Position numbers and translations under genes: made by a program. From Pseudobdellovibrionaceae bacterium (GTDB lineage Bacteria; Bdellovibrionota; Bdellovibrionia; Bdellovibrionales; UBA1609), in NCBI GenBank assembly GCA_947444305.1, contig CANEZP010000008.1, positions 1 through 64,000 of the forward strand: DNA of 64,000 nt, given 5' to 3'. Shown here piece by piece: positions 9,050-23,035 of this stretch. Under the pieces are notes generated by a model, which saw only the letters and a list, made by a program, of their open reading frames with translations, ran no database searches and had not been told where the DNA came from. The stretch's first letter is position 1; the number at the start of each line of letters is the position of its first letter.

Positions 9050-11785
9050 ATGCACCATCTAAGACATTGTTTTTACTTAGGCCTTTTGTTGTTCACCCTC
9101 GCCTCCTCCGCCAGCGTGGTCGCCCCTAACGACGGTCCATACTACCGTTTACGTAAGGATCGAACCCTCTACATTTACGACAAATCGACCCGCGATCTGA
9201 TTAACCAACTCGCTGCCTACAACCAATCCGTGCGCGAAATCTACGATCAGAGCTACGGTTGGAAGTTAGATGAGGAGATGGATTTATTGCTCACCTCACC
9301 TAAACAACAGATCGCGAACGCCTGGGCGACGACCTCGCCCAATATCAAAACCGTTTGGTACCCTTCCGGCGCAGTCTTGGCCGACGAGATGGCCGAAACT
9401 TCGTGGTTGTTGCTGCTAAACGCCCACGAGGTCGCGCACCTTTATCAACTGAACGCCAAAGGCCGCTTCAACGCCGGTTTGAAAAGTGTGTTCGGCAACG
9501 CGATCATTCTGCAGCCGTTCATCCCCGTCTTCTTACACCCCAACTTTTTCACGCCGACCTTCATGATCGAAGGCAACGCCACGTTTAACGAATCACGCCT
9601 CAATCTCGGCGGCCGGCTTTACAGCGGCGAGAAGCGTGCGCTCGTGCTCGCGCAGATTGGCGCGGGCGATATCGATCCTTCACGTTTAATTAACGACGAC
9701 TTCTATTTTCCGTACGGCGAAGAATCCTACATGCAAGGCGCTTATTTCCAAGCTCACCTCGCGGCCAAGTACGGGGTTGAAAAAACAAATAGCTTCTTCG
9801 TCGCGCAGGGCGAACATTATTTCTTACCGCTGATTTTGAACAACACTTTCCGTGAGCACTTCGGCAACAGCTACGCGCAAGAAATTCGCGAATACGTACG
9901 CAATATGGAAGGCCTCGCGAAAAAACAGCAAAGCACCGACGGCGATCGTTTGCTCGACACCACTTTCGTAGGCAATTTCAACCACGACGGCGGCCGCATT
10001 TTCTTCCTCACAAACTCGGCGAAAGAGCCGCCTGTCTTGCAGGTCTTCGATAAAAAGACCAAAAAGTTCGAGCGGAACCAGCTCGACTTGCTCATGGGTA
10101 AAGTTTTTTTTGACGGCACCACCGTGCGTACCGCGGCCAGTGACCAGAACAATCTTTTAAGTACCGAATATTCACTCTACGGCGTCGGCGCACGCGTGGA
10201 CGATCGCTACCGCGGGCAAATTGTGACCGATCAGCGCGCGGGCAAAACGGTTTCGCTCGACGCGACCGATTCGTGGTTGCAGCCGAAAGTTCTGCTCGAC
10301 GGTGAGCCGTACGACGTCAGTCAATCCAGCGCGATCTTAGATGAACGCGGCAACGTTTATTATTTCCGCCAGAACGGCGCCGAACGGATCCTTTACAAAA
10401 ATCGCGAACCGGTCACGAAGTTCGAGGGTTTTTACGCTAAACCACTTGAGGTCACGCCCGACGGCACGTTTTATTTTATCGGCTCTACCGATTATGGTTC
10501 GACGCTTTTCCGTTTGCGCGGCAAAGAGATCGCGCGTGTTTTGAAGTCCGACCGGGTGACCGACGCCCGCTGGGTCGGTGGGGATGAATTCTTAATCGCC
10601 GAGGTCAATCACCTCGGTCACAACATCATGCTCGCGAAGGGCGAGGTAAAACCGCAGCTGCCGGCCGTCTATTCTTACGGTTATCCTAATCAAAACTTGC
10701 GTCCCGCGGCCGCCATGACCCCGAATCAAGTCAACGAAGAGGAGCGGCCGTACAATTCGTTGGGGCAAATGCGTTACAACGCGCTTGAATTCGTTACGGG
10801 ATATTCGACCGGCTCCGGCGCGGCTTTGGCGGTGCAGACTTCGTTCTCCGACCCGCTTGAATACCAATCGTTCACCGCCGCGTTTGCAGGTACGCAGTTC
10901 AATGACCGGCAAGCTTTGGTGCAGTATTCGTTCACCAAATACCTGCCCGATTTTTTTGCACGCTACAGCTACGAAGAAGACGAGTGGCAAACGATCGACC
11001 GGGTCGACCAATTAGCTTACGATCAAGAACTCGCGCTGGGCGTGAACATGCCCGTTTGGCGTTACAAAAGATGGGATGCCGCGCTCGGGCTCGCGTTGAT
11101 TTACGAACACAACGACGCCCACAACGATTCCGCTTCACCGCTCAAGCTCGCCGATACCGAAGAAACGTACGGGACGATGTCGACGTTCGGACTGAACTAC
11201 GCGATCACGCCCGGCCTCGGTTTTTTCCCGTGGCGCGCCTTCTCTTTAAATTACGTGAATCGTTTGGAGACCCAGGCCAACACCTGGACGAAGCGTTACA
11301 ATACCTCACTCGTACAGACCAGCTACACTTACGGTTTACCCAAAGAGTTTTACGTTACCGCGGCCGCGAATTACGCCTGGGCCGAAGATCCCGATATCAA
11401 AGTCGGTTACGATCCGACTTCGCTTTCACAAGATATTCGGGTCGCGCGTTTGACTTCGCACAAAGAGGAATACCTCACCAAGAACGCGGGAACCGTGCGG
11501 CTTGAAATTTCAAACGTACAAACTTTGCGCGCCTACTCGGCCCGCATGCCGATTGGTCTCAACCGGATCGCGCCGGTCGTGGTTGGCCAAGGTTTGTTTT
11601 TGGACGACGACGCCCGCAACCTGTACCCGCAAAATACTTTCGAATGGGGCTGGGGCGCGGATCTTGAAGTTCTGCTTCTGCACCGGATCCCCGTTCATAT
11701 TCGTTTGCTGAACGCGTACGACACACGCTCGCCCATCGGCGAACCCGAAAGCGAAGCCCGCCTAAGTTATTCCGCGAAATTTTAA
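9050..11785 (+). CDS. Outer-membrane protein with gluzincin motif, propeller-like middle and C-terminal beta-barrel
   Basis: A 911-aa exported protein; the signal peptide is about residues 1-21 (LGLLLFTLASSASV). His126-Glu-Val-Ala-His130 followed by Glu174 (MIEGNATF) fits an HExxH...E gluzincin zinc site. Residues about 290-560 show short repeated strands resembling a TolB/WD-type propeller (FYFIGSTDYGSTLFRLRG, FLIAEVNHLGHNIMLAKG). Residues about 590-911 alternate in amphipathic strands and end in LSYSAKF, a typical outer-membrane barrel terminus. I infer a barrel-anchored surface or periplasmic zinc protease. It converges with the lipoprotein gene, overlapping it by 4 bp. Confidence 0.8.
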   Translation: MHHLRHCFYLGLLLFTLASSASVVAPNDGPYYRLRKDRTLYIYDKSTRDLINQLAAYNQSVREIYDQSYGWKLDEEMDLLLTSPKQQIANAWATTSPNIKTVWYPSGAVLADEMAETSWLLLLNAHEVAHLYQLNAKGRFNAGLKSVFGNAIILQPFIPVFLHPNFFTPTFMIEGNATFNESRLNLGGRLYSGEKRALVLAQIGAGDIDPSRLINDDFYFPYGEESYMQGAYFQAHLAAKYGVEKTNSFFVAQGEHYFLPLILNNTFREHFGNSYAQEIREYVRNMEGLAKKQQSTDGDRLLDTTFVGNFNHDGGRIFFLTNSAKEPPVLQVFDKKTKKFERNQLDLLMGKVFFDGTTVRTAASDQNNLLSTEYSLYGVGARVDDRYRGQIVTDQRAGKTVSLDATDSWLQPKVLLDGEPYDVSQSSAILDERGNVYYFRQNGAERILYKNREPVTKFEGFYAKPLEVTPDGTFYFIGSTDYGSTLFRLRGKEIARVLKSDRVTDARWVGGDEFLIAEVNHLGHNIMLAKGEVKPQLPAVYSYGYPNQNLRPAAAMTPNQVNEEERPYNSLGQMRYNALEFVTGYSTGSGAALAVQTSFSDPLEYQSFTAAFAGTQFNDRQALVQYSFTKYLPDFFARYSYEEDEWQTIDRVDQLAYDQELALGVNMPVWRYKRWDAALGLALIYEHNDAHNDSASPLKLADTEETYGTMSTFGLNYAITPGLGFFPWRAFSLNYVNRLETQANTWTKRYNTSLVQTSYTYGLPKEFYVTAAANYAWAEDPDIKVGYDPTSLSQDIRVARLTSHKEEYLTKNAGTVRLEISNVQTLRAYSARMPIGLNRIAPVVVGQGLFLDDDARNLYPQNTFEWGWGADLEVLLLHRIPVHIRLLNAYDTRSPIGEPESEARLSYSAKF

Positions 11786-12583: not shown

Positions 12584-15500
12584 TTGTCATCAGGCATCGG
12601 CAGCATCGCATTAATGTTTATCTTCATGGGCTTCTCCGCCCATGGCGCTCCCCTATTGCCTCAAAACTTTACGGTTGAAGGACGCTTCTTCGACGCGGGC
12701 AACCCGATGAACGCGGTCGTGAACGTCCGGTTAGATGTCCTCGTGCAAGACGCAACTTATCCAGATTGCATTCTCTATAGCGAACAGCACAACGGCGTGA
12801 ACGTCACCGGCACCGCGGCGACCGCGGGGTTCTTCGCGTTGCCGTTAGGCAGCGGGACGTCTCCCGTCAACTTGCTCGGCGAATTCTGGCGCGTATTTTC
12901 CAACTCTGAGAACCTGACGTTATTGCCGCCAACCTGCAAGAATATAGATCTGACCAACAAGCCACGTCTGATCCGCATCTCCGTCGATAAAGCGCAAGAC
13001 GGAAACTACGCGACGCTTTCGCCCGACACGGTTGTGACTTCGGTCCCGACGGCGTTGGTCGCCGAAACTTTAAACGGCAAATCTTCCGCAGATTTTTTGC
13101 AGCCTAACGACAACGTCGCTACCGATTTATCCCAAGGCAGCCTCGAGAATGTTTTCTCATCGACCAATTACGCGCGTTTAAAAGAGTTATTGAGTCCGAC
13201 GGCAGCTGTTGGTTTTGGCGGACAGCGCTTAACGAATCTCGCGGACCCGACGTCGGCGCAAGACGCGACGACCAAAACATATTCCGACACGCGCCTAGCC
13301 GGTCAAACGATCGACCTCGCCGACGTCGCGGCCGGTTTCGGCGGTGGTAAAGTTTTGACTTGGGATCAAACCGCGGCGAAGTGGGTGGCCACGGCTCCCG
13401 TTACGATGGGCGCGGCCGGCGGCGACCTCTCGGGCACGTACCCGAACCCGACGATCGCGGCTTTGGCGATCGGCACTTCGAAGCTCGCGGACAACGCGGT
13501 TACTTCCACAAAGATCTCCACCACCGGAATCGCGCCTAATCAATTGGTCATTACCGACAACCTCTCGGGCGCAACCCTCAAATACGCTTCTTGCGCGAAC
13601 AACGAAGTTCTGAAGTACGTCACCGGAACGGGTTGGCAGTGCACAGATGTCTCGATGCTCTCCGCAGTTTTGTCGGTGAACGGAAAGAGCGGCGTCGTCG
13701 TTTTGAACGGTGCGGACTTGGGTTTAAAAACGGCTTCGATGCGCGACATCGGCCTCGCGGTCGGCGAAGTTCCGGACCTCGATGCCGGCGGTAAGCTCGC
13801 AACGGGTGTCATCCCTAACTTCGCGGGCGATATCAGCGGCGCTTACACGAGCGCTTTCGTAGCGGGCCTACAAGGCCGCGCGATCGCCGACACGGCTCCG
13901 AACGCGAATGAAGTTTTGCGCTGGAATGCAACGTTGCTGCGCTGGGAACCGTCGGCCCTCGTGGATAACGTTGGGATCACCGCTTTAACCGGCGACATCA
14001 GTGCATCAGGCACCGGCTCGGTGGCGGCGGTTCTATCGAATGGCGTAGTTACGACCCCCAAAATGTTTGCGAATCCCGGCGCCAATCGTCTGATCGCTAC
14101 CGACGCGACGACCGGGGCTACGTTGCAACCTTTCGTATGCTCTGGCCTAAACGAAACTCTTCGGTGGACCGCCGCGGGCTGGGCCTGCGTCGATGCGACC
14201 ACCCTCCTCGGTGGAAACCCCGTGTACGTCGGTGGTAATTCCGTCGTCGCGGATCTCAACATCGGCACGAGCAACAACTACGCCGTGAATCTAATCACGA
14301 ACAACACGAGCCGTGTCACCGTAATGACCGGTGGAAATGTCGGTATCGGCACCTCAGCACCGGCCAGGCTTCTCGAAGTGGCCGGCCCCATGCGATTGCA
14401 ACCCGGTGCGATGCCAACCACGCCCGCGGCGGGTGATCTAGCCTTCGACAGTGGCTTGGCAAATGCCTTACGCTTTCACAACGGTGCGAACTGGATCACG
14501 ATCGGCAACGGAAACGGCGACTTTTTAGCCAATGGTACCGTAGCGATGACCGGTAATCTTCGGATGAACGGACGCTACGTTTCGTCGGACGGTGATAACG
14601 AGGGCTTATACGTCGACGGCGCCGGCCGTGTCGGTATCGGCAACAATGTTCCGGCCGTAGCGCTCGACGTCACCGGATCGGTCAACGTAGGGAGCACCGT
14701 CACTTCGGGTCAATTTATCGCGGCGCAAAGTTTGACCCCGGCGGTTGGCTATGGTTTCAATAATTCACCGACGACGGGACTAAGTTCTTCGAATCCGGGT
14801 TTCGTTGAAGTCGTGTCGAACGGCACCACCGTCGTTAATATTGACGACACGCTGGCCCGGTTTAACAAACCGTTGAGTATTTCGAGCGAAATTACGCAGA
14901 ACTATCTACCCGCCGGTTCGCCGCCCACTCCAGCCAACATTCAGGTGAGAGTCACGAACGCGGCGGCAGCGGACAATAATCTCGTGAGCATGCGACTGAG
15001 CACCCGGAATGCGACAAACCAAGACCAAAGCGCTTACATCGGCGCCGTTTCCAATTCGGGCGCGAGCAGTTATTCTCCGACGATTGTCTTTGGCCAATCG
15101 TTGAACCCAACGACCTACTCCGAGCGCATGCGGATTGCCGCGGACGGAAGTGTGGGTATCGGCACCTCAACCCCGACACGTTTGCTCGAAGTCGGCGGCT
15201 CCATTCGCATTCAGCCCGGCCTTCTACCCGTTTCGCCTAGCGCGGGCGATTTGGCCTTCGACAGCGGGGATTCAAACAAGCTCAAATTCAACAACGGATC
15301 AATCTGGGTGAGTATCGGCTCAGGCACCGGTGACTTCATGGCCTCGGGCTCGGTGCCGATGACCGGTGAACTTAGATTAATAGATGGTGCCGCGAACACG
15401 CCGGGCCTAACCTTTCAAAGTGACACGGACAACGGACTTTTCTTGCCCGGTCCCGACAGCGTTGCCCTAAGCACCGGCGGTATTGAGCGGCTGCGTGTCG

Positions 15501-18500
15501 ATAGCCTTGGCAGAGTAGGTATCGGAACCTCTACCGGACAATATCCCCTTCAAGTTTCCACCACTTCGGTCGGCGTCGTAAACGCCGTGGTGTTGACAAA
15601 TAAAAGCTCCGCATCCGCCGGAAACGGCGTCGCTCTCGGAATGACCTCCGGTACTGCCCAAATCGGCAACATCGCCGCCGTGAACGAATCGAACTCGAAT
15701 TCCTATCTCGCCTTTTCAAATCGTTCCGTAACCACCTTGCAAGAGCGTCTTCGGATAAGCTCTAACGGAAATGTCGGCGTCGGCACCACAGATCCCCAGC
15801 GTAAACTGCAGGTAGAAGGTGCCATGCGCCTCACGCCCGCGCCTTTACCGGGAACTCCGGGAGCTGGTGATCTCGCTTTTGACAGCGCGAGTGCGAATTC
15901 ACTAAAATATCACAACGGAACTGCTTGGGTTACGATCGGTTCCGGCACCGGCGACTTCATGAAGGACGGCTCGGTCGCGATGACCGGCAACTTCCGCACC
16001 GGCGGCAACTGGATTTCAAACGCGGGCGCGAATGACGGTTTGTTCGTTACGTCTACGGGCAACGTCGGTATCGGTTTGACGAATCCGACCACGAAATTAG
16101 ACGTGAACGGCACTTTGAACGCGAATGGCCCTATCAGCACCGGCTCGTACGTGCTCGCTAAAGGCTCGGGGTACGGATTTATTCAAGAAAGCAACTCGCA
16201 CAAGTTGATAACTTTTTTGAACGGTGGATCCTACCAATTCGGTACTGAAACGAACACTCCCCTTACGCTCGCGACTAATAATTTAGACAGAATCTTCATC
16301 AGCAACAACGGGAACGTCGGTATCGGCACGACAAACCCGGCGGCCCGCCTCGACGTGAACGCGAATATCTTAGTTAACGGCGTAAGCGTCGGTCGCGGTA
16401 CGAACAACGTGGCAAGCAATTTAGCCTTTGGAACCACGGCGTTAAATACGGCGACCGGCGGTGAGAACACCGCAATCGGACACGCCACATTGACGAATGT
16501 TAACACCGGTACGGCGAACACCGCGATGGGTCTTAATGCATTGAACGGACTTTCGGTCGGAGCTCAAAACGTAGCCGTGGGGCGATCGGCCATGGCCGGA
16601 ATGGTGACCGGCTCCAATAACGTGGCCGTTGGTTCTTACTCGTTAGCAAGCTCGGGTTTGAAAAATTACAACACCGCACTCGGTGACAGTACTCTTTTTA
16701 ACGATACATCAGGAGAACGAAATCTAGCGCTCGGTTACCAAGCTGGGTTCTCGATCACTACGGGTTCACAGAATACGATTGTAGGAACCGAGAGTGGCTC
16801 GAATCTTACGACGGGCTCAAACAATATACTTATTGGCCGTAGTGCGACGACCCCGGCCAATGACACAACCGGCTTCTTAAACATCGGTAATGCAATCTAC
16901 GCGACCGGCATGTCGGGAAGTCTCGCCAATCCCGCCGGAAATGTGGGTATCGGCACGACAACCCCGCTTCGGACTCTGGAAGTGGCCGGCTCGATCCGCG
17001 TGCAACCGACGGTACTCCCCGCTTCGCCGGTCGTGGGTGACATCGTCATCGATAGCGCGGCCGGTAACTCTTTTAAATATCACAATGGTTCCAATTGGCA
17101 GACCGTGAATACAGGTGCAGGCGACTTCAGATCCGACGGCACCATCGCGATGACCGGGGCACTCCGCACGATCGCCGGAACATCCACCACGCCGGGTTTC
17201 ACTTTCTCCGGCGACACCGATAGCGGACTCTACGCACCCGTTGCCGACAACCTTGGACTAACCACCGCGGGCGGCGAAAAAGTTCGCATTTTAGCGAACG
17301 GCAACGTAGGACTCGGTACGACTTCGCCGAACGCGCGACTGGACGTCGCGGGTCAAATCTTTACGTCTAGTGGACTCTACGCAAACGGCGTCGCTCTTAA
17401 GCTGGGTATTGCGGGCAATCCCTACATCACCGTTCTGCCAACCGGCGAGGTCGGCGTCGGCATGACTTCGCCTACCTCGGCGTTCCAAGCCGCGGCTTCC
17501 GGCCCGAAAACCACGAACTACGTTGGCCACTCGTTTACTAACGATGCAACCTCGACCTTGTCGAGCCTCATCAAAACCGGTTTAGATATTCAATCAAACG
17601 GTACTTGGTCAGGCGTGGGCGCGATGAACGTAGGACTCAACGTCAACGTTAGCGGCGCCACCACCAATTACGCAGCTACCTTCAACGGCGGAAGCGTCGG
17701 TATCGGCACCTCAACCCCGGCGCGCACGCTCGATATTTACGGCGTCATGCGCTTGCGACCGTTTACGGCACCAGTACCCGGGGCCGTGGGCGATATTCTT
17801 ATCGACAGTGCCGCATCGAACGCTCTCAGATATCATAACGGCACCCAATGGCAAACGGTCGGCACCGGTAACGGCGATCTTCGCGCGGACGGCAGCGTCC
17901 CGATGACGGGAGCTTTGCGAGTGATCGCGGGCTCACCGTCAAGCGCCGGGCTTGCCTTCGTCGGCGACACGAACAACGGAATCTTCTCACCGGCCGCGGA
18001 CATTTTGGCCGTTACAACTTCAGGCCTCGAACGCCTGCGCGTGACGAACCAAGGTTATGTCGGGATCGGATCGACCGCACCAACCGGCCGTTTTCAAGTG
18101 ACCGAGTCACGAGCCGACACCAGCGGAGACGTAGTTTCAAACGGGACAAATTTAGAGGTCAATTTTGGTTCCGCAAGTTCCGCAAACTTCTATGCTTCGC
18201 GAAATCAAGCGCTGCTTAAAGGCGGCGTGAACGGCGCGCAGGTCTACGGCGCAGATAATTTTGCGAATAGCGAAAGTACCGGGAACATCGCTTTATTGGT
18301 GGGCTCACAAAACTCCGCAGCATTGGCCTCGGGCACCGCCGGAGAGTTATTCGGAGCTAAAAACTTTGCGCGCATTGATAACAATTCGACAGCAACTTCG
18401 ACTTACGGCGCGATGAACACTTCCATTCGTTACGCGCTCGGAACGACAACGCAAGCCTTCGGTGCGTACAACTCGGTTGAAAACCAAGATGGTGTAACTA

Positions 18501-20077
18501 ATAAGGCCTACGGAAGTTACAATACCGTTAGCCAAGCGACCGGTACGACGATGTCCGAAGCGTTCGGGAGCTACAATAAAATTTCGAGTATCGGCACAAT
18601 CACGAATGCGTTTGGCGTATATGCAGAATTGACCGGCGGAGGTAGTTCGATCACCAACGGCTACGGCGTTTACGTCGGGAACATGGCAGGCAATAATAAA
18701 TACTCGCTCTACGCCTCAGATGTTACCGCTCCTTCCTTTCTCGCGGGTAGACTTGGGATCGGCCTTTCCAACCCCGCGCGCGCCCTGCACGTCGCCGGAC
18801 CGATTCGCATCGCCGCCACGAACCTCCCCGGCTCACCGGCCGCGGGCGATATCGCGATTGATTCGGCCGCGGGCAACACACTTAAATTTCACAACGGCTC
18901 AAACTGGCAGACGATCAACACGGGTACGGGCTTCGCGGCTTCGGGCGTGAATACAGATATCACGGCGTTGAACGCGGTGACTTCTATTTCCGCACCGTCT
19001 GCGTTGAGCATCGGAACCTCGTCTAATGACTCGATCACGATCGGCAATGCCTCTACCGGCAACGCGACTTTCGGGAATACCGGTACGGGATCAACCACGA
19101 CGATTCGTGGCGGAACAGGCGGTAACGTCAACGTCACGGGGGGCGCTTTCACGGTCACTTCGGGCGCGGGCATCACGCTTACTCCGGGCACGACCGGCGG
19201 ACTTTCCATCGGCGGCGCAAGCACCGGCACGGCGATCTTCGGTAACACGGGCACGAACGCATTAACGACAATTCAGAGTGGATCAGGCGCGTCGGGTAAA
19301 GCAACCGTCAGCTCTTCCGGCACGGGCGCGGATGCGGTGACCCTCAACTCAACCGGTGGTGGCATCACGTTAAGCGCGCTCTCTGGAACAAACGTCGTGG
19401 GCAGTTTCAAACTTACACCAATGAACACGCCGGCCTCCCCAACCGCCGGCTTGATGTTTATCGATAGCGGCGCAGCTAACGCTTTAAAATATCATAACGG
19501 CTTGGCTTGGCAGTCCGTCGGTACCGGAGACTTTAAGGCCAATGGTACGGTCCCGATGATCGGTTCATTGCAGGTAGTTTCGGGCCCGGCTACCTCACCG
19601 GGATTAACGTTTGTCGGTGACACGAACACCGGCGTTTACTCCCCGGCTGTAGATAACGTTGGGATCAGCACTTCGGGGATTGAGCGTTTGCGGATAACGG
19701 ATACCGGAAATGTGGGCATCGGCACCTCAGCAGTACCTTCGGCTAAGCTTGAGATCAATGGACAGATGCGGACGACCGGGCCTAGTGGCGTAACGTATAA
19801 TAACACTACTACAACTGTCGATTGGAACAACGGGAACATTCAAACAATGAGCGCGAATTGCGGAACTACACAGTTTTCGAACATGCTTGATGGTGGAGTG
19901 TATACACTGGCCGTCACGGACATAGCTATTAATACCTGCACGTTTACTCAGGCCGGGCTAACGTTCTATTTCTCACCTGGAAATGGCTTCCGTAATAATG
20001 GACAGCGAACCATTTACAGTTTTCAACGTATTGGAACTGATGTTTACGTTTCCTGGATACCTGGTTTTGCACTTTGA
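12584..20077 (+). CDS. Giant modular fibre / adhesin (mosaic trimeric fibre type)
   Basis: A 2497-aa secreted protein from TTG 12584; ATG 12614 is an alternative giving a shorter signal peptide. Layout: signal peptide to about 22; a unique N-terminal domain (about 23-170); a phage-fibre-like linker with GGDLSGTYPNPTIAAL near 280; then a long shaft with about 14 copies of an NVGIGTxxPxxxLxV motif. Five or more of these head longer modules of about 121 residues (MRLQP...AGDLAFDS...FHNG..W.TIG.G.GDF...MTG.LR). Near residues 1280-1430 is a YadA-head-like block (NTAIG, NTAMG, NVAVG, NTALG). The final ~110 residues are a distinct tip with two Cys. The organisation resembles the mosaic adhesive trimer fibres of Bdellovibrio. 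It is probably a surface fibre that contacts prey or a surface. Confidence 0.88.
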   Translation: MSSGIGSIALMFIFMGFSAHGAPLLPQNFTVEGRFFDAGNPMNAVVNVRLDVLVQDATYPDCILYSEQHNGVNVTGTAATAGFFALPLGSGTSPVNLLGEFWRVFSNSENLTLLPPTCKNIDLTNKPRLIRISVDKAQDGNYATLSPDTVVTSVPTALVAETLNGKSSADFLQPNDNVATDLSQGSLENVFSSTNYARLKELLSPTAAVGFGGQRLTNLADPTSAQDATTKTYSDTRLAGQTIDLADVAAGFGGGKVLTWDQTAAKWVATAPVTMGAAGGDLSGTYPNPTIAALAIGTSKLADNAVTSTKISTTGIAPNQLVITDNLSGATLKYASCANNEVLKYVTGTGWQCTDVSMLSAVLSVNGKSGVVVLNGADLGLKTASMRDIGLAVGEVPDLDAGGKLATGVIPNFAGDISGAYTSAFVAGLQGRAIADTAPNANEVLRWNATLLRWEPSALVDNVGITALTGDISASGTGSVAAVLSNGVVTTPKMFANPGANRLIATDATTGATLQPFVCSGLNETLRWTAAGWACVDATTLLGGNPVYVGGNSVVADLNIGTSNNYAVNLITNNTSRVTVMTGGNVGIGTSAPARLLEVAGPMRLQPGAMPTTPAAGDLAFDSGLANALRFHNGANWITIGNGNGDFLANGTVAMTGNLRMNGRYVSSDGDNEGLYVDGAGRVGIGNNVPAVALDVTGSVNVGSTVTSGQFIAAQSLTPAVGYGFNNSPTTGLSSSNPGFVEVVSNGTTVVNIDDTLARFNKPLSISSEITQNYLPAGSPPTPANIQVRVTNAAAADNNLVSMRLSTRNATNQDQSAYIGAVSNSGASSYSPTIVFGQSLNPTTYSERMRIAADGSVGIGTSTPTRLLEVGGSIRIQPGLLPVSPSAGDLAFDSGDSNKLKFNNGSIWVSIGSGTGDFMASGSVPMTGELRLIDGAANTPGLTFQSDTDNGLFLPGPDSVALSTGGIERLRVDSLGRVGIGTSTGQYPLQVSTTSVGVVNAVVLTNKSSASAGNGVALGMTSGTAQIGNIAAVNESNSNSYLAFSNRSVTTLQERLRISSNGNVGVGTTDPQRKLQVEGAMRLTPAPLPGTPGAGDLAFDSASANSLKYHNGTAWVTIGSGTGDFMKDGSVAMTGNFRTGGNWISNAGANDGLFVTSTGNVGIGLTNPTTKLDVNGTLNANGPISTGSYVLAKGSGYGFIQESNSHKLITFLNGGSYQFGTETNTPLTLATNNLDRIFISNNGNVGIGTTNPAARLDVNANILVNGVSVGRGTNNVASNLAFGTTALNTATGGENTAIGHATLTNVNTGTANTAMGLNALNGLSVGAQNVAVGRSAMAGMVTGSNNVAVGSYSLASSGLKNYNTALGDSTLFNDTSGERNLALGYQAGFSITTGSQNTIVGTESGSNLTTGSNNILIGRSATTPANDTTGFLNIGNAIYATGMSGSLANPAGNVGIGTTTPLRTLEVAGSIRVQPTVLPASPVVGDIVIDSAAGNSFKYHNGSNWQTVNTGAGDFRSDGTIAMTGALRTIAGTSTTPGFTFSGDTDSGLYAPVADNLGLTTAGGEKVRILANGNVGLGTTSPNARLDVAGQIFTSSGLYANGVALKLGIAGNPYITVLPTGEVGVGMTSPTSAFQAAASGPKTTNYVGHSFTNDATSTLSSLIKTGLDIQSNGTWSGVGAMNVGLNVNVSGATTNYAATFNGGSVGIGTSTPARTLDIYGVMRLRPFTAPVPGAVGDILIDSAASNALRYHNGTQWQTVGTGNGDLRADGSVPMTGALRVIAGSPSSAGLAFVGDTNNGIFSPAADILAVTTSGLERLRVTNQGYVGIGSTAPTGRFQVTESRADTSGDVVSNGTNLEVNFGSASSANFYASRNQALLKGGVNGAQVYGADNFANSESTGNIALLVGSQNSAALASGTAGELFGAKNFARIDNNSTATSTYGAMNTSIRYALGTTTQAFGAYNSVENQDGVTNKAYGSYNTVSQATGTTMSEAFGSYNKISSIGTITNAFGVYAELTGGGSSITNGYGVYVGNMAGNNKYSLYASDVTAPSFLAGRLGIGLSNPARALHVAGPIRIAATNLPGSPAAGDIAIDSAAGNTLKFHNGSNWQTINTGTGFAASGVNTDITALNAVTSISAPSALSIGTSSNDSITIGNASTGNATFGNTGTGSTTTIRGGTGGNVNVTGGAFTVTSGAGITLTPGTTGGLSIGGASTGTAIFGNTGTNALTTIQSGSGASGKATVSSSGTGADAVTLNSTGGGITLSALSGTNVVGSFKLTPMNTPASPTAGLMFIDSGAANALKYHNGLAWQSVGTGDFKANGTVPMIGSLQVVSGPATSPGLTFVGDTNTGVYSPAVDNVGISTSGIERLRITDTGNVGIGTSAVPSAKLEINGQMRTTGPSGVTYNNTTTTVDWNNGNIQTMSANCGTTQFSNMLDGGVYTLAVTDIAINTCTFTQAGLTFYFSPGNGFRNNGQRTIYSFQRIGTDVYVSWIPGFAL
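14336..19730 (+). repeat. Degenerate ~363-bp (121-aa) module array inside the fibre gene
   Basis: Motif starts (GTxGGTATCGGCAC or variants) occur near 14336, 14628, 15150, 15513, 15770, 16065, 16318, 16940, 17304, 17450, 17695, 18058, 18750 and 19711. The pairs 15150/15513, 16940/17304 and 17695/18058 are each separated by ~363 bp and contain the same ordered landmarks (AGD, HNG..W, GxGDF, MTG.LR, DT..G, ERLR). The repeats sit in DNA of ordinary host composition, unlike the 3' tip. Confidence 0.85.
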
Positions 20078-21468
20078 TTAAGTATTTTGCGTTTCTACTA
20101 ATTTACTGCAGTTTAAACGTTGCACACGCGCAGATGGCCGTCGGCTTCTTAAGAACTGCGTGTCCGGCTGGCTACATTCACGTTCCACCACTTGCCCCTT
20201 ACACGACTCGAAATTTTTGCGTTATGAAGTACGAGGCTAAGAACAACGGCAGCGGCGTTGCTACTTCAATCTATTCGGGATTACCGTGGACAAACATACC
20301 GAGGGGTGCTGGGCCGCAGAGTGCCGGCGGTGCTTGGAATAAGTGCCGAAGTCTAGGCTCGAACTTCGATCTTATCTCTAACGACGAATGGCAAACAATT
20401 GCGCGAAACATTGCGGACGTCGGCATAAACTGGAGTGGTGCAGTCGCCTATACTGGCCAAATAAATGTTGGCCATTCTGATAATGTCCCTCCTAGTGAAC
20501 AGGCCGCCGCAATCACAGACGCAACACCGTGTACGAATACAGGAACCGGTTGTGTTAACTCAACGTGGAACAGGCAGTGGCGGACTCACACGCTAAGTAA
20601 CGGCGCGATCATTTGGGATTTTGGCGGTAATGTTTCTGAATGGGTAAGCAATGACCGTTACGAATTGGTCGGAACGGCGGGCCGAGTTCATACCTTAACC
20701 GGTGCCGCGCAAACCTTATTCGGCAACGACACAAATTGCGCGGCCCCTATAAACAGTACTAACCAATATTGTGGTTTTGGTAACGCCGACATTGGTGAGT
20801 GGAACGGCGCCTACATCCGAGGCTCCTCTTTTGCCGATGCATCGACCGGTACGGCAGGCATATTTGCAACCTCCCTCTTGCCTTACACGAGCGAAGCGTT
20901 CATCGGCTTCCGTTGCGTCTATCGTCCTCCGAACGATGATATCTTATGCCCCTCCACCACACCGGGATCGAATTGCATGCCAGGTACGGCCGGCACTACA
21001 CCACAATCTCCGAAGTATCTCGGAGAAATGAATGGTTCACGCTATATGACGACGATGAGCGGATGCGTGAACGCCACTAACTCCGTCTGCAACGGGGGCG
21101 CGGACGCTGTAACCTACCAGTACGCCAATGACCGAGTCCTTAGTTTTAACCAGGCCGTTAGTGTTAATGACGGAGCTTTTAATACAGGGAAAATAATCGA
21201 CACGGCCTTCACCGCTCCTGCGGGCTCGTTTTGTCAGAATCTCATCTGGGGTGGCTATAACGACTGGTTTTTGCCCGCACCTGCCGAAATGGTGCTCTTT
21301 CAAAATAGCTGGCTCGCGCTCAGTATGAATAATTCTAATTATTGGACATCCAGAGAGTCCGCGGCGAACCAAGCGAATTCTGTGGGTATGACAGGCGCCG
21401 CAATTTCAGAAGATAAAGAATCAACAAGATTGGTTCGTTGCGTACGTAAGTACAACTTCAATCCTTAA
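20074..21468 (+). CDS. Secreted FGE-sulfatase-fold plus Lcl/DUF1566-type protein, coupled to the fibre gene
   Basis: A 464-aa protein whose TTG start overlaps the fibre stop (TTGA), so translation is probably coupled. Residues 1-20 form a signal peptide (ending AHAQ). Residues about 25-285 match the formylglycine-generating-enzyme/sulfatase-modifying fold, a C-type lectin topology (FCVMKYEAKN, GGNVSEWVSNDRYE, YIRGSSFAD, FIGFRCVYRP). Residues about 290-460 match the Lcl/DUF1566 fold (GGYNDWFLPAPAEM, YWTSRES, RLVRCVRKY). About a dozen Cys suggest disulfides in an extracytoplasmic protein. These folds often serve binding rather than catalysis. I infer a partner or tip of the fibre. Confidence 0.85.
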   Translation: MIKYFAFLLIYCSLNVAHAQMAVGFLRTACPAGYIHVPPLAPYTTRNFCVMKYEAKNNGSGVATSIYSGLPWTNIPRGAGPQSAGGAWNKCRSLGSNFDLISNDEWQTIARNIADVGINWSGAVAYTGQINVGHSDNVPPSEQAAAITDATPCTNTGTGCVNSTWNRQWRTHTLSNGAIIWDFGGNVSEWVSNDRYELVGTAGRVHTLTGAAQTLFGNDTNCAAPINSTNQYCGFGNADIGEWNGAYIRGSSFADASTGTAGIFATSLLPYTSEAFIGFRCVYRPPNDDILCPSTTPGSNCMPGTAGTTPQSPKYLGEMNGSRYMTTMSGCVNATNSVCNGGADAVTYQYANDRVLSFNQAVSVNDGAFNTGKIIDTAFTAPAGSFCQNLIWGGYNDWFLPAPAEMVLFQNSWLALSMNNSNYWTSRESAANQANSVGMTGAAISEDKESTRLVRCVRKYNFNP

Positions 21469-21609: not shown

Positions 21610-22059
21610 TTACTGGGGGCAAGTGGCGTTACAAGCATTCAAGGTGTCGACTTCGCCGGAAATGCAGTTGGCGCGTTCCGATTGGTAGAAAGTTTCGCAA
21701 GCAACGTTGCCGCCACAAACTGAGGGGTCAAACGTGTTTTGGCAGGTCACTACGTTAGCGTCGTAGTTTTGTTGACATGAAACTTCACATTGATTGGGGC
21801 CCGAGCCTTGATCAAGACACGCGAATTTTTCGGTCTTAGCGGAAACGACGCAGGTCTTTAAGTTGGCAAAGCGAACCGTGGGCTTTTGGAAGAACGAGGT
21901 CACTACGCACTTAATAAGATCGTTGGCGAATTCGCGGCGGCAAAGTTGTTCGGCGGTCGGCACCGGCTTCGGAGTTTTCGTCTTCAGCGTAAAGCCTGCG
22001 AAAGCAGATTGCGAAACGATCATCATCGAAAAGAAGCTAAGTGCGATTTTTGAAAACAT
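21610..22059 (-). CDS. Small Cys-rich secreted protein (paralogue 1)
   Basis: A 149-aa protein. The signal peptide ends near SQSAFA (residue 21). The mature part has about 12 Cys and no recognised domain. Its C-terminal half (ANYDAN/TCQNTFDPSVCGG, then ACETFYQSERANC and VDTLNACNATCPQ) is nearly identical to that of the gene at 22477. The start is supported by GGGG eight bases upstream. It is probably a disulfide-stabilised periplasmic or secreted protein. Function is unknown; the family may be lineage-specific. The 140 bp to the FGE-fold gene show no clear terminator. Confidence 0.85.
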   Translation of the reverse strand: MFSKIALSFFSMMIVSQSAFAGFTLKTKTPKPVPTAEQLCRREFANDLIKCVVTSFFQKPTVRFANLKTCVVSAKTEKFACLDQGSGPNQCEVSCQQNYDANVVTCQNTFDPSVCGGNVACETFYQSERANCISGEVDTLNACNATCPQ

Positions 22060-22476: not shown

Positions 22477-22890
22477 TTACTGAGGGCAAGCGGCGTTACA
22501 AGCGTTCAAAGTATCGACTTCGCCCGCTAAGCAATTTGCGCGTTCCGATTGGTAGAAAGCTTCGCAACCCGCGACGCCGCCACATACGGAAGGATCAAAA
22601 GTATTTTGGCAGGTTACCGCGTTTGCATCGTAGTTTGCTTGGCAGGTCGTGGAGCATTGATCCGGTTGTTCACCGCCGCCACCGGCTAAGCATGTGCGTT
22701 TGTCTTCTTTAGCGTCGACCACGCAGGCCTTCAGAGCGTTGGCGCGGAGCTTCGGCTTTACGGTGCGAAGCGATTGGGCGCAGTTCACAACGGTGCTCAC
22801 GAACTCTCTTTGGCATAGACGATCGCCGGCGGCTGCGGGTTGCGAAACGACTAATAAAGAGACGAAGCTGAGAGCAAATTTTGCGAACAT
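22477..22890 (-). CDS. Small Cys-rich secreted protein (paralogue 2)
   Basis: A 137-aa protein from ATG 22890, supported by AAGGGG nine bases upstream. The signal peptide is about residues 1-21 (FALSFVSLLVVSQPAAAG). It is a tandem paralogue of 21610-22059. The two share NYDANxVTCQNTFDPSVCGG, the FYQSERANC block and the VDTLNACNAxCPQ end, while the N-terminal half and loop (AGGGGEQPDQCS) are more diverged. All Cys of the shared half are kept. It is likely exported and disulfide-bonded; function is unknown. Confidence 0.85.
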   Translation of the reverse strand: MFAKFALSFVSLLVVSQPAAAGDRLCQREFVSTVVNCAQSLRTVKPKLRANALKACVVDAKEDKRTCLAGGGGEQPDQCSTTCQANYDANAVTCQNTFDPSVCGGVAGCEAFYQSERANCLAGEVDTLNACNAACPQ

Positions 22891-23035
22891 GTAAGTGGAC
22901 CCCTTGTTTGATGAATACCTTGCAGAATACTTTTGCAAACGCACGGCCACGGGCCCGACAACGCAAGGTCTTGAATTGCGGTAAAACGAATCACTGCATC
23001 ATGTCCACGATACCGACAGGCTGTTGGAATGTTGA

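Follow-up and report, generated by a model that had tools for sequence, protein, structure and literature searches.

How predatory bacteria recognize many prey is an open question, to which the family of mosaic adhesive trimer (MAT) fibres, surface fibres that Bdellovibrio deploys on its prey, gives a partial answer. The study describing them (PMC10769870) reports 21 MATs for Bdellovibrio bacteriovorus HD100, where they are typically about 1000 aa long, and a MAT is recognized by a β-rich, conserved N-terminal domain of about 130 aa that follows a signal peptide. In crystals, the same study reports, the Bd2133 tip trimer has an N-terminal hexapeptide bound 1:1. Two other systems bear comparison. 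Phage gp38 is seated on gp37 by its N-terminus (PMC12892980), and the C-terminal domain of Legionella Lcl is a trimeric glycan-binding head carried on a trimeric stalk (PMC11162425).

The window considered here is the whole 64,000-nt stretch at the start of contig CANEZP010000008.1, from a Pseudobdellovibrionaceae bacterium of the order Bdellovibrionales. It encodes a fibre that, judged by its sequence, is a non-S74 (NS74-type) MAT with a phage-type β-sandwich knob.

The MAT fibre and its shaft

The fibre gene (12584..20077, + strand) is a single frame of 2497 aa without interruption, running from a TTG start to a TGA stop. A weak candidate signal peptide, a feature also named by an earlier note on this DNA, occupies approximately 12584..12649, with a hydrophobic stretch and AHGA. 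Since no basic residue follows the TTG, and since an in-frame RRRFRV just upstream sits after a TAA and lacks a start codon, the exact start of the fibre is uncertain. The next segment (12644..13108, residues 21-175), expected to be the cell-proximal anchor, matches the NCBIfam model Bdello_MAT_N (NF053851) with 67.4 bits, the cut-off being 60, and with 74.6 bits in a genome-wide search. This model finds seven MAT loci in the window's genome, matches in 103 of the 141 genomes covered from the order (21 times in one of them, G004), and has no match in 14 control genomes. In the PDB, too, the fibre's best sequence matches are MAT fibres: Bd2133 (8ond) at E=6e-7, then 8ojn, a weaker match at E=0.02. 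Thus, the earlier note's reading of the protein as a Bdellovibrio-type mosaic adhesive trimer is borne out by a family match above cut-off and by the closest solved structures. No Pfam family, S74 included, matched the fibre, and the PF13884 matches in the window's genome lie elsewhere. The fibre is filed as a non-S74 MAT because of the NF053851 counts, the PDB matches to MATs and the matches of the shaft to PHROG families.

Downstream of the N-terminal domain lies a phage-fibre-type linker, GGDLSGTYPNPTIA (13418..13459, residues 279-292), and then a mosaic shaft (14336..19729) that contains VGIG-type capping motifs and seven GD..DS..KYHNG modules. The capping motifs number exactly 14 (at residues 585, 682, 856, 977, 1063, 1160, 1244, 1453, 1574, 1622, 1704, 1825, 2056 and 2376). 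In most of these loops a P comes next and then an LxV strand, which fits a MAT capping loop of the V-G-[GN]-x-x-x-P type. A spacing of 121 residues occurs three times (856-977, 1453-1574 and 1704-1825) and one of 97 residues twice (585-682 and 1063-1160), while the module core, ..PxAGDxxxDSxxxNxLKYHNGxxW..GDFxxxGxVxMTGxLR.., is present in seven copies. The phage-fibre-like linker, the roughly 14 motifs and the recurring modules of about 121 residues described by the earlier note are therefore all present, together with the 97-residue version. Three PHROG tail-fibre families (9942, 18345 and 28766) match the shaft. Within it, a GxxNxAxG repeat region (16403..16852, residues ~1274-1423) resembles a YadA head in sequence; a search of this region against the PDB gave no match.

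By proportion to Bd3182 (~550 A; PMC10769870), a fibre of 2497 aa would be roughly 150 nm long. The earlier note had considered it a very long example, which does not hold within its own lineage: of the other six MAT-N loci in the window's genome, four lie in longer frames (2853 to 3277 aa) and the remaining two are cut by contig ends, and the longest MAT frame in a congener reaches 3808 aa. Such lengths are normal for MATs of this lineage, and the candidate claim that the fibre is the longest MAT was dropped in view of the 3277- and 3808-aa frames. G004 contains a MAT of 1959 aa. One contig of the window's genome (C25, locus L044) carries two tandem MAT genes, the first with a frame of 2853 aa and the second ending at the contig end.

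The terminal knob and the downstream gene

The fibre closes in a C-terminal knob (19709..20074, residues 2376-2497), for which alignments, an AlphaFold model and matches in BFVD (predicted viral proteins) point to a β-sandwich with two conserved cysteines; the separate tip seen by the earlier note begins at about residue 2400. The tip family, defined by the last ~100 residues, has members in 57 of the 141 genomes covered from the order and at the C-terminus of other MATs, as well as outside the order in records titled Bacteriovorax and Elusimicrobia and in phage contigs. Related genomes pair the same N-terminal domain with knob, FGE-like, Lcl_C or S74-like tips, the variation in tips for which the earlier note had advised looking. 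The tip model, built from an 11-sequence alignment, is a β-sandwich with a pLDDT of 72.5 overall and of about 67-91 by block in the tip part. A Foldseek search of the model against BFVD returned many tail-fibre proteins with a probability of 1.00 and E-values down to 2e-6. Against the PDB the best match was not below E=0.02, with no likeness found to the Bd2133 or Bd1334 tips, and a PDB sequence search with the tip alone gave chance matches only. As modelled, the fibre tip is a phage-type knob, like the C-terminal domains of phage tail fibres; it is so called because of the BFVD tail-fibre matches at a probability of 1.00, with no confident match in the PDB. An alignment of the tip profile with Bd2133 (PDB) was rejected as a sign of tip likeness; what aligns is chiefly the capping-loop segment rather than the Bd2133 tip domain.

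In a record titled Elusimicrobia (L123, 7183-9330), a fibre with the same knob and a sub-threshold match to the MAT N-terminal domain (47.8 bits) is followed by a secreted protein containing GAFWKGG. The knob/partner system may thus extend beyond Bdellovibrionota, bin contamination being the alternative explanation for this record.

The gene downstream of the fibre (20074..21468, + strand) shares 4 bp (TTGA) with the fibre gene at its stop and encodes a secreted protein of 464 aa that, from its homologues, is FGE-like and Lcl_C-like. A signal peptide, MIKYFAFLLIYCSLNVAHA (20074..20130, called from the sequence by a heuristic scan), is followed by a proposed docking tag, QMAVGFLRT (20131..20157), a weak variant of GFW[KQ] that matches the relaxed motif only. 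The FGE/C-type-lectin-like domain (20149..20934) aligns with proteins that belong to the Pfam FGE-sulfatase family (PF03781, cut-off 23.3 bits), in L161 (35.3 bits) and L138 (26.6 bits). The window's copy has no PF03781 match, and the label is therefore limited to "FGE-like"; an AlphaFold model of this domain (pLDDT 42) was set aside. The remaining domain (20944..21465) is likewise called only "Lcl_C-like", because its PF07603 score of 26.1 bits lies under the cut-off of 34.9. Homologues in L137 and L179 are above that cut-off, and the family profile finds PDB 8q4e at E=6e-11.

Elsewhere, the same partner domains are joined to fibres. Complete MATs confirmed by NF053851 end in fused FGE (L161) or Lcl_C (L186) tips, a knob is fused to Lcl_C in L137, and a fibre is fused to FGE in L147. 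Split fibre/FGE pairs like that of the window occur in another family of the order (L138), in L156 and, outside the order, in L246. A fibre link for all FGE-like proteins was considered and rejected, as most of the stand-alone FGE-like proteins retrieved have no adjoining fibre. One stand-alone FGE-like protein (L155, 1650-2513, minus strand, genome G036) bears a tag (IPVWFWKNPKLCPPGY), with no fibre found directly upstream. A single-sequence search of viral contigs with the coupled protein found none, and a profile search with its family found distant FGE relatives. Viral contigs (L195-L200) carry near-identical 1090-aa FGE-ended proteins in which the last ~40 residues differ, as in targets of diversity-generating retroelements.

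Other secreted or exported proteins are encoded nearby. Just upstream of the fibre, 9050-11785 encodes an exported protein of 911 aa with a propeller-like middle and a β-barrel-like C-terminal half, for which neither Pfam nor NCBIfam gave a match. Beyond the coupled gene, two small secreted paralogues on the minus strand (21610-22059 and 22477-22950) have in common a Cys-rich C-terminal part, NYDANxVTCQNTFDPSVCGG...FYQSERANC.GEVDTLNACNA.CPQ.

Knob, partner and tag

We lean slightly toward a split adhesin, in which the fibre knob would hold a separately secreted partner through an N-terminal tag. Its main competitor, possible but rather unlikely, is a self-sufficient NS74 MAT whose knob itself binds the ligand, with the downstream gene encoding an independent secreted adhesin whose only tie to the fibre is co-expression. 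MATs with other tips do use the tip for glycan binding (Bd2439; PMC10769870), and gene overlaps are common in bacteria; however, tight coupling is about four times commoner behind knob fibres than behind control genes. A tightly placed signal-peptide gene follows 62 of 117 knob fibres and 36 of 269 control genes (Fisher, 2e-15, a test that, like the other Fisher test here, ignores the kinship of the genomes, which are related and not independent, and that uses signal peptides called by a home-made rule).

The tag provides a second line of evidence. Its strict form, F[WF][KRQNHGS] just after the signal peptide, is present in 33 of 73 partners and 4 of 129 control secreted proteins. The motif was noticed post hoc, prior to testing. 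In the early data it was found in 14 of 25 partners of the discovery set and in 8 of 22 retrieved after the motif had been spotted. Regular expressions were then fixed beforehand and applied to fresh loci, where they found the tag behind 9 of 15 knob fibres from genomes beyond the order (1e-7 by Fisher's test) and in 2 of 11 remaining in-order loci, which have more divergent knobs. Among 20 MATs with non-knob tips, 9 precede a signal-peptide gene, usually at a distance of 66-102 bp, and the motif is absent from all 9 of these genes. Its rarity in control secreted proteins and its absence behind non-knob MATs argue against a self-sufficient fibre, as does the existence of knob-Lcl fusions. About half of the coupled partners have no tag, as would be expected if the fibre acted alone, and the window's own tag (GFLR) fits the relaxed form only.

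The tag is nonetheless kept across partners of unrelated fold, which also speaks against merely co-expressed adhesins. By inspection or profile, the coupled genes encode NHL propeller (Pfam-confirmed for one), RCC1-like, LamG-like, Gly-rich and FGE proteins; NHL, RCC1, LamG-like and FGE partners are among those with the tag, and examples of it after the signal peptide are VAFWKGV, GAFWKRK, GGFWQKR, IGFWKSS and PFGFFKA. In the split FGE proteins of L138 and L246 it stands directly before the FGE domain, the window's copy having the weaker GFLR, whereas FGE domains fused to a fibre (L161, L147) are without it. In G004, a knob-ended 1959-aa MAT overlaps a 711-aa NHL-type gene with GGFWQKR, and in the window's own genome a second knob-ended MAT, of 3277 aa, is overlapped by the NHL-repeat gene behind it, whose tag reads VAFWKGV. 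The latter locus (L041/L042, contig C1, about 1-23.5 kb) carries, on one strand, the knob MAT, the secreted NHL-repeat protein of 1326 aa and then a further MAT, at least 3198 aa long. In two phage loci (L131, L132) the proteins have no signal peptide and open directly with a similar tag (MQPFPTAFWKKG and MIVFPFSFTKS). Some knob-ended fibres (L209, L210, L082, L086) have behind them secreted WTG..PGDYTSSGIVTI proteins that lack the tag; these partners are perhaps a different docking class.

A role as a chaperone for folding or exporting the fibre, with no place in the mature structure, is improbable for the downstream protein. T4 gp38, whose gene has the same position relative to gp37, is such a chaperone and is released after assembly (PMC12892980), but the great diversity of partner folds (propellers, lectin-like domains, solenoids) is a better fit to exchangeable binding heads, and the same partner domains occur as fused MAT tips. 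Least credible is a prophage or tail-like-particle remnant instead of a bacterial surface organelle, since the PHROG tail-fibre matches and the phage-type linker and knob are set against predicted signal peptides on both proteins, a MAT N-terminal domain with seven MAT loci in the genome, and scanned neighbours without a recognized phage structural gene.

The split adhesin is the most economical mechanism for the knob, the coupled gene and the tag, drawing on the observed N-terminal domain, modules, knob class, gene overlap, partner domains fused elsewhere and association of knob, gene and tag. In this mechanism, the fibre chain would be secreted and held at the cell surface by its MAT N-terminal domain, with about 2200 residues of β-helix and β-prism modules forming a long trimeric shaft capped by the knob. 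The overlapping gene would supply a separately secreted, two-domain, lectin-like adhesin, which would attach to the knob trimer by the tag directly behind the signal peptide, reading QMAVGFLRT in this protein and GFW[KQ] across the family, and be presented by the fibre to other cells, probably prey. Precedents for such an attachment are the hexapeptide on the Bd2133 tip (PMC10769870) and gp38 on gp37 (PMC12892980). The knob-tag docking, a ligand for the fibre or its partner, assembly as a homotrimer, surface display and a role in predation by this organism are all inferred.

More broadly, the knob could be a universal socket in a plug-in adhesin system of Bdellovibrionota and some phages, in which downstream heads of unrelated fold carry a GFW[KQ]-type tag and a predator swaps one gene to change its specificity; we consider this evenly balanced. 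Recognition diversity would then come from swapped downstream genes as well as from tips, and the tag would allow partner adhesins to be predicted from sequence. The literature searched, with subscription papers mostly outside its coverage, yielded no description of fibre/partner pairs with such a tag.

Comparison with described fibres and adhesins

The B. bacteriovorus MATs Bd2133, Bd1334, Bd2439, Bd2740 and Bd3182 (as presented in the accessible text of PMC10769870) share with the fibre an NF053851 N-terminal domain, a shaft with VGIG capping loops and a non-S74 tip. The fibre differs in its length (2497 aa against about 1000), in its phage-type knob, which by sequence and Foldseek is not among the solved MAT tips, and in its coupled secreted partner, which that text does not describe. 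In T2/S16-type phages, the gene behind that for a trimeric-type fibre (gp37) likewise encodes a distinct receptor-binding head, gp38, which binds by its N-terminus (PMC12892980). The analogy is functional only; here both fibre and partner are bacterial and secreted, and the tag proposed for docking spans only about 8 residues. Legionella Lcl (PMC11162425, PDB 8q4e) resembles the coupled protein in the Lcl_C-like domain, a weak match that here lies on a separate polypeptide without a collagen region. Finally, the C-terminal domains of caudovirus tail fibres (BFVD, PHROG) have the same predicted knob fold and similar modules, whereas the bacterial knob has conserved cysteines and caps MAT fibres that are secreted.
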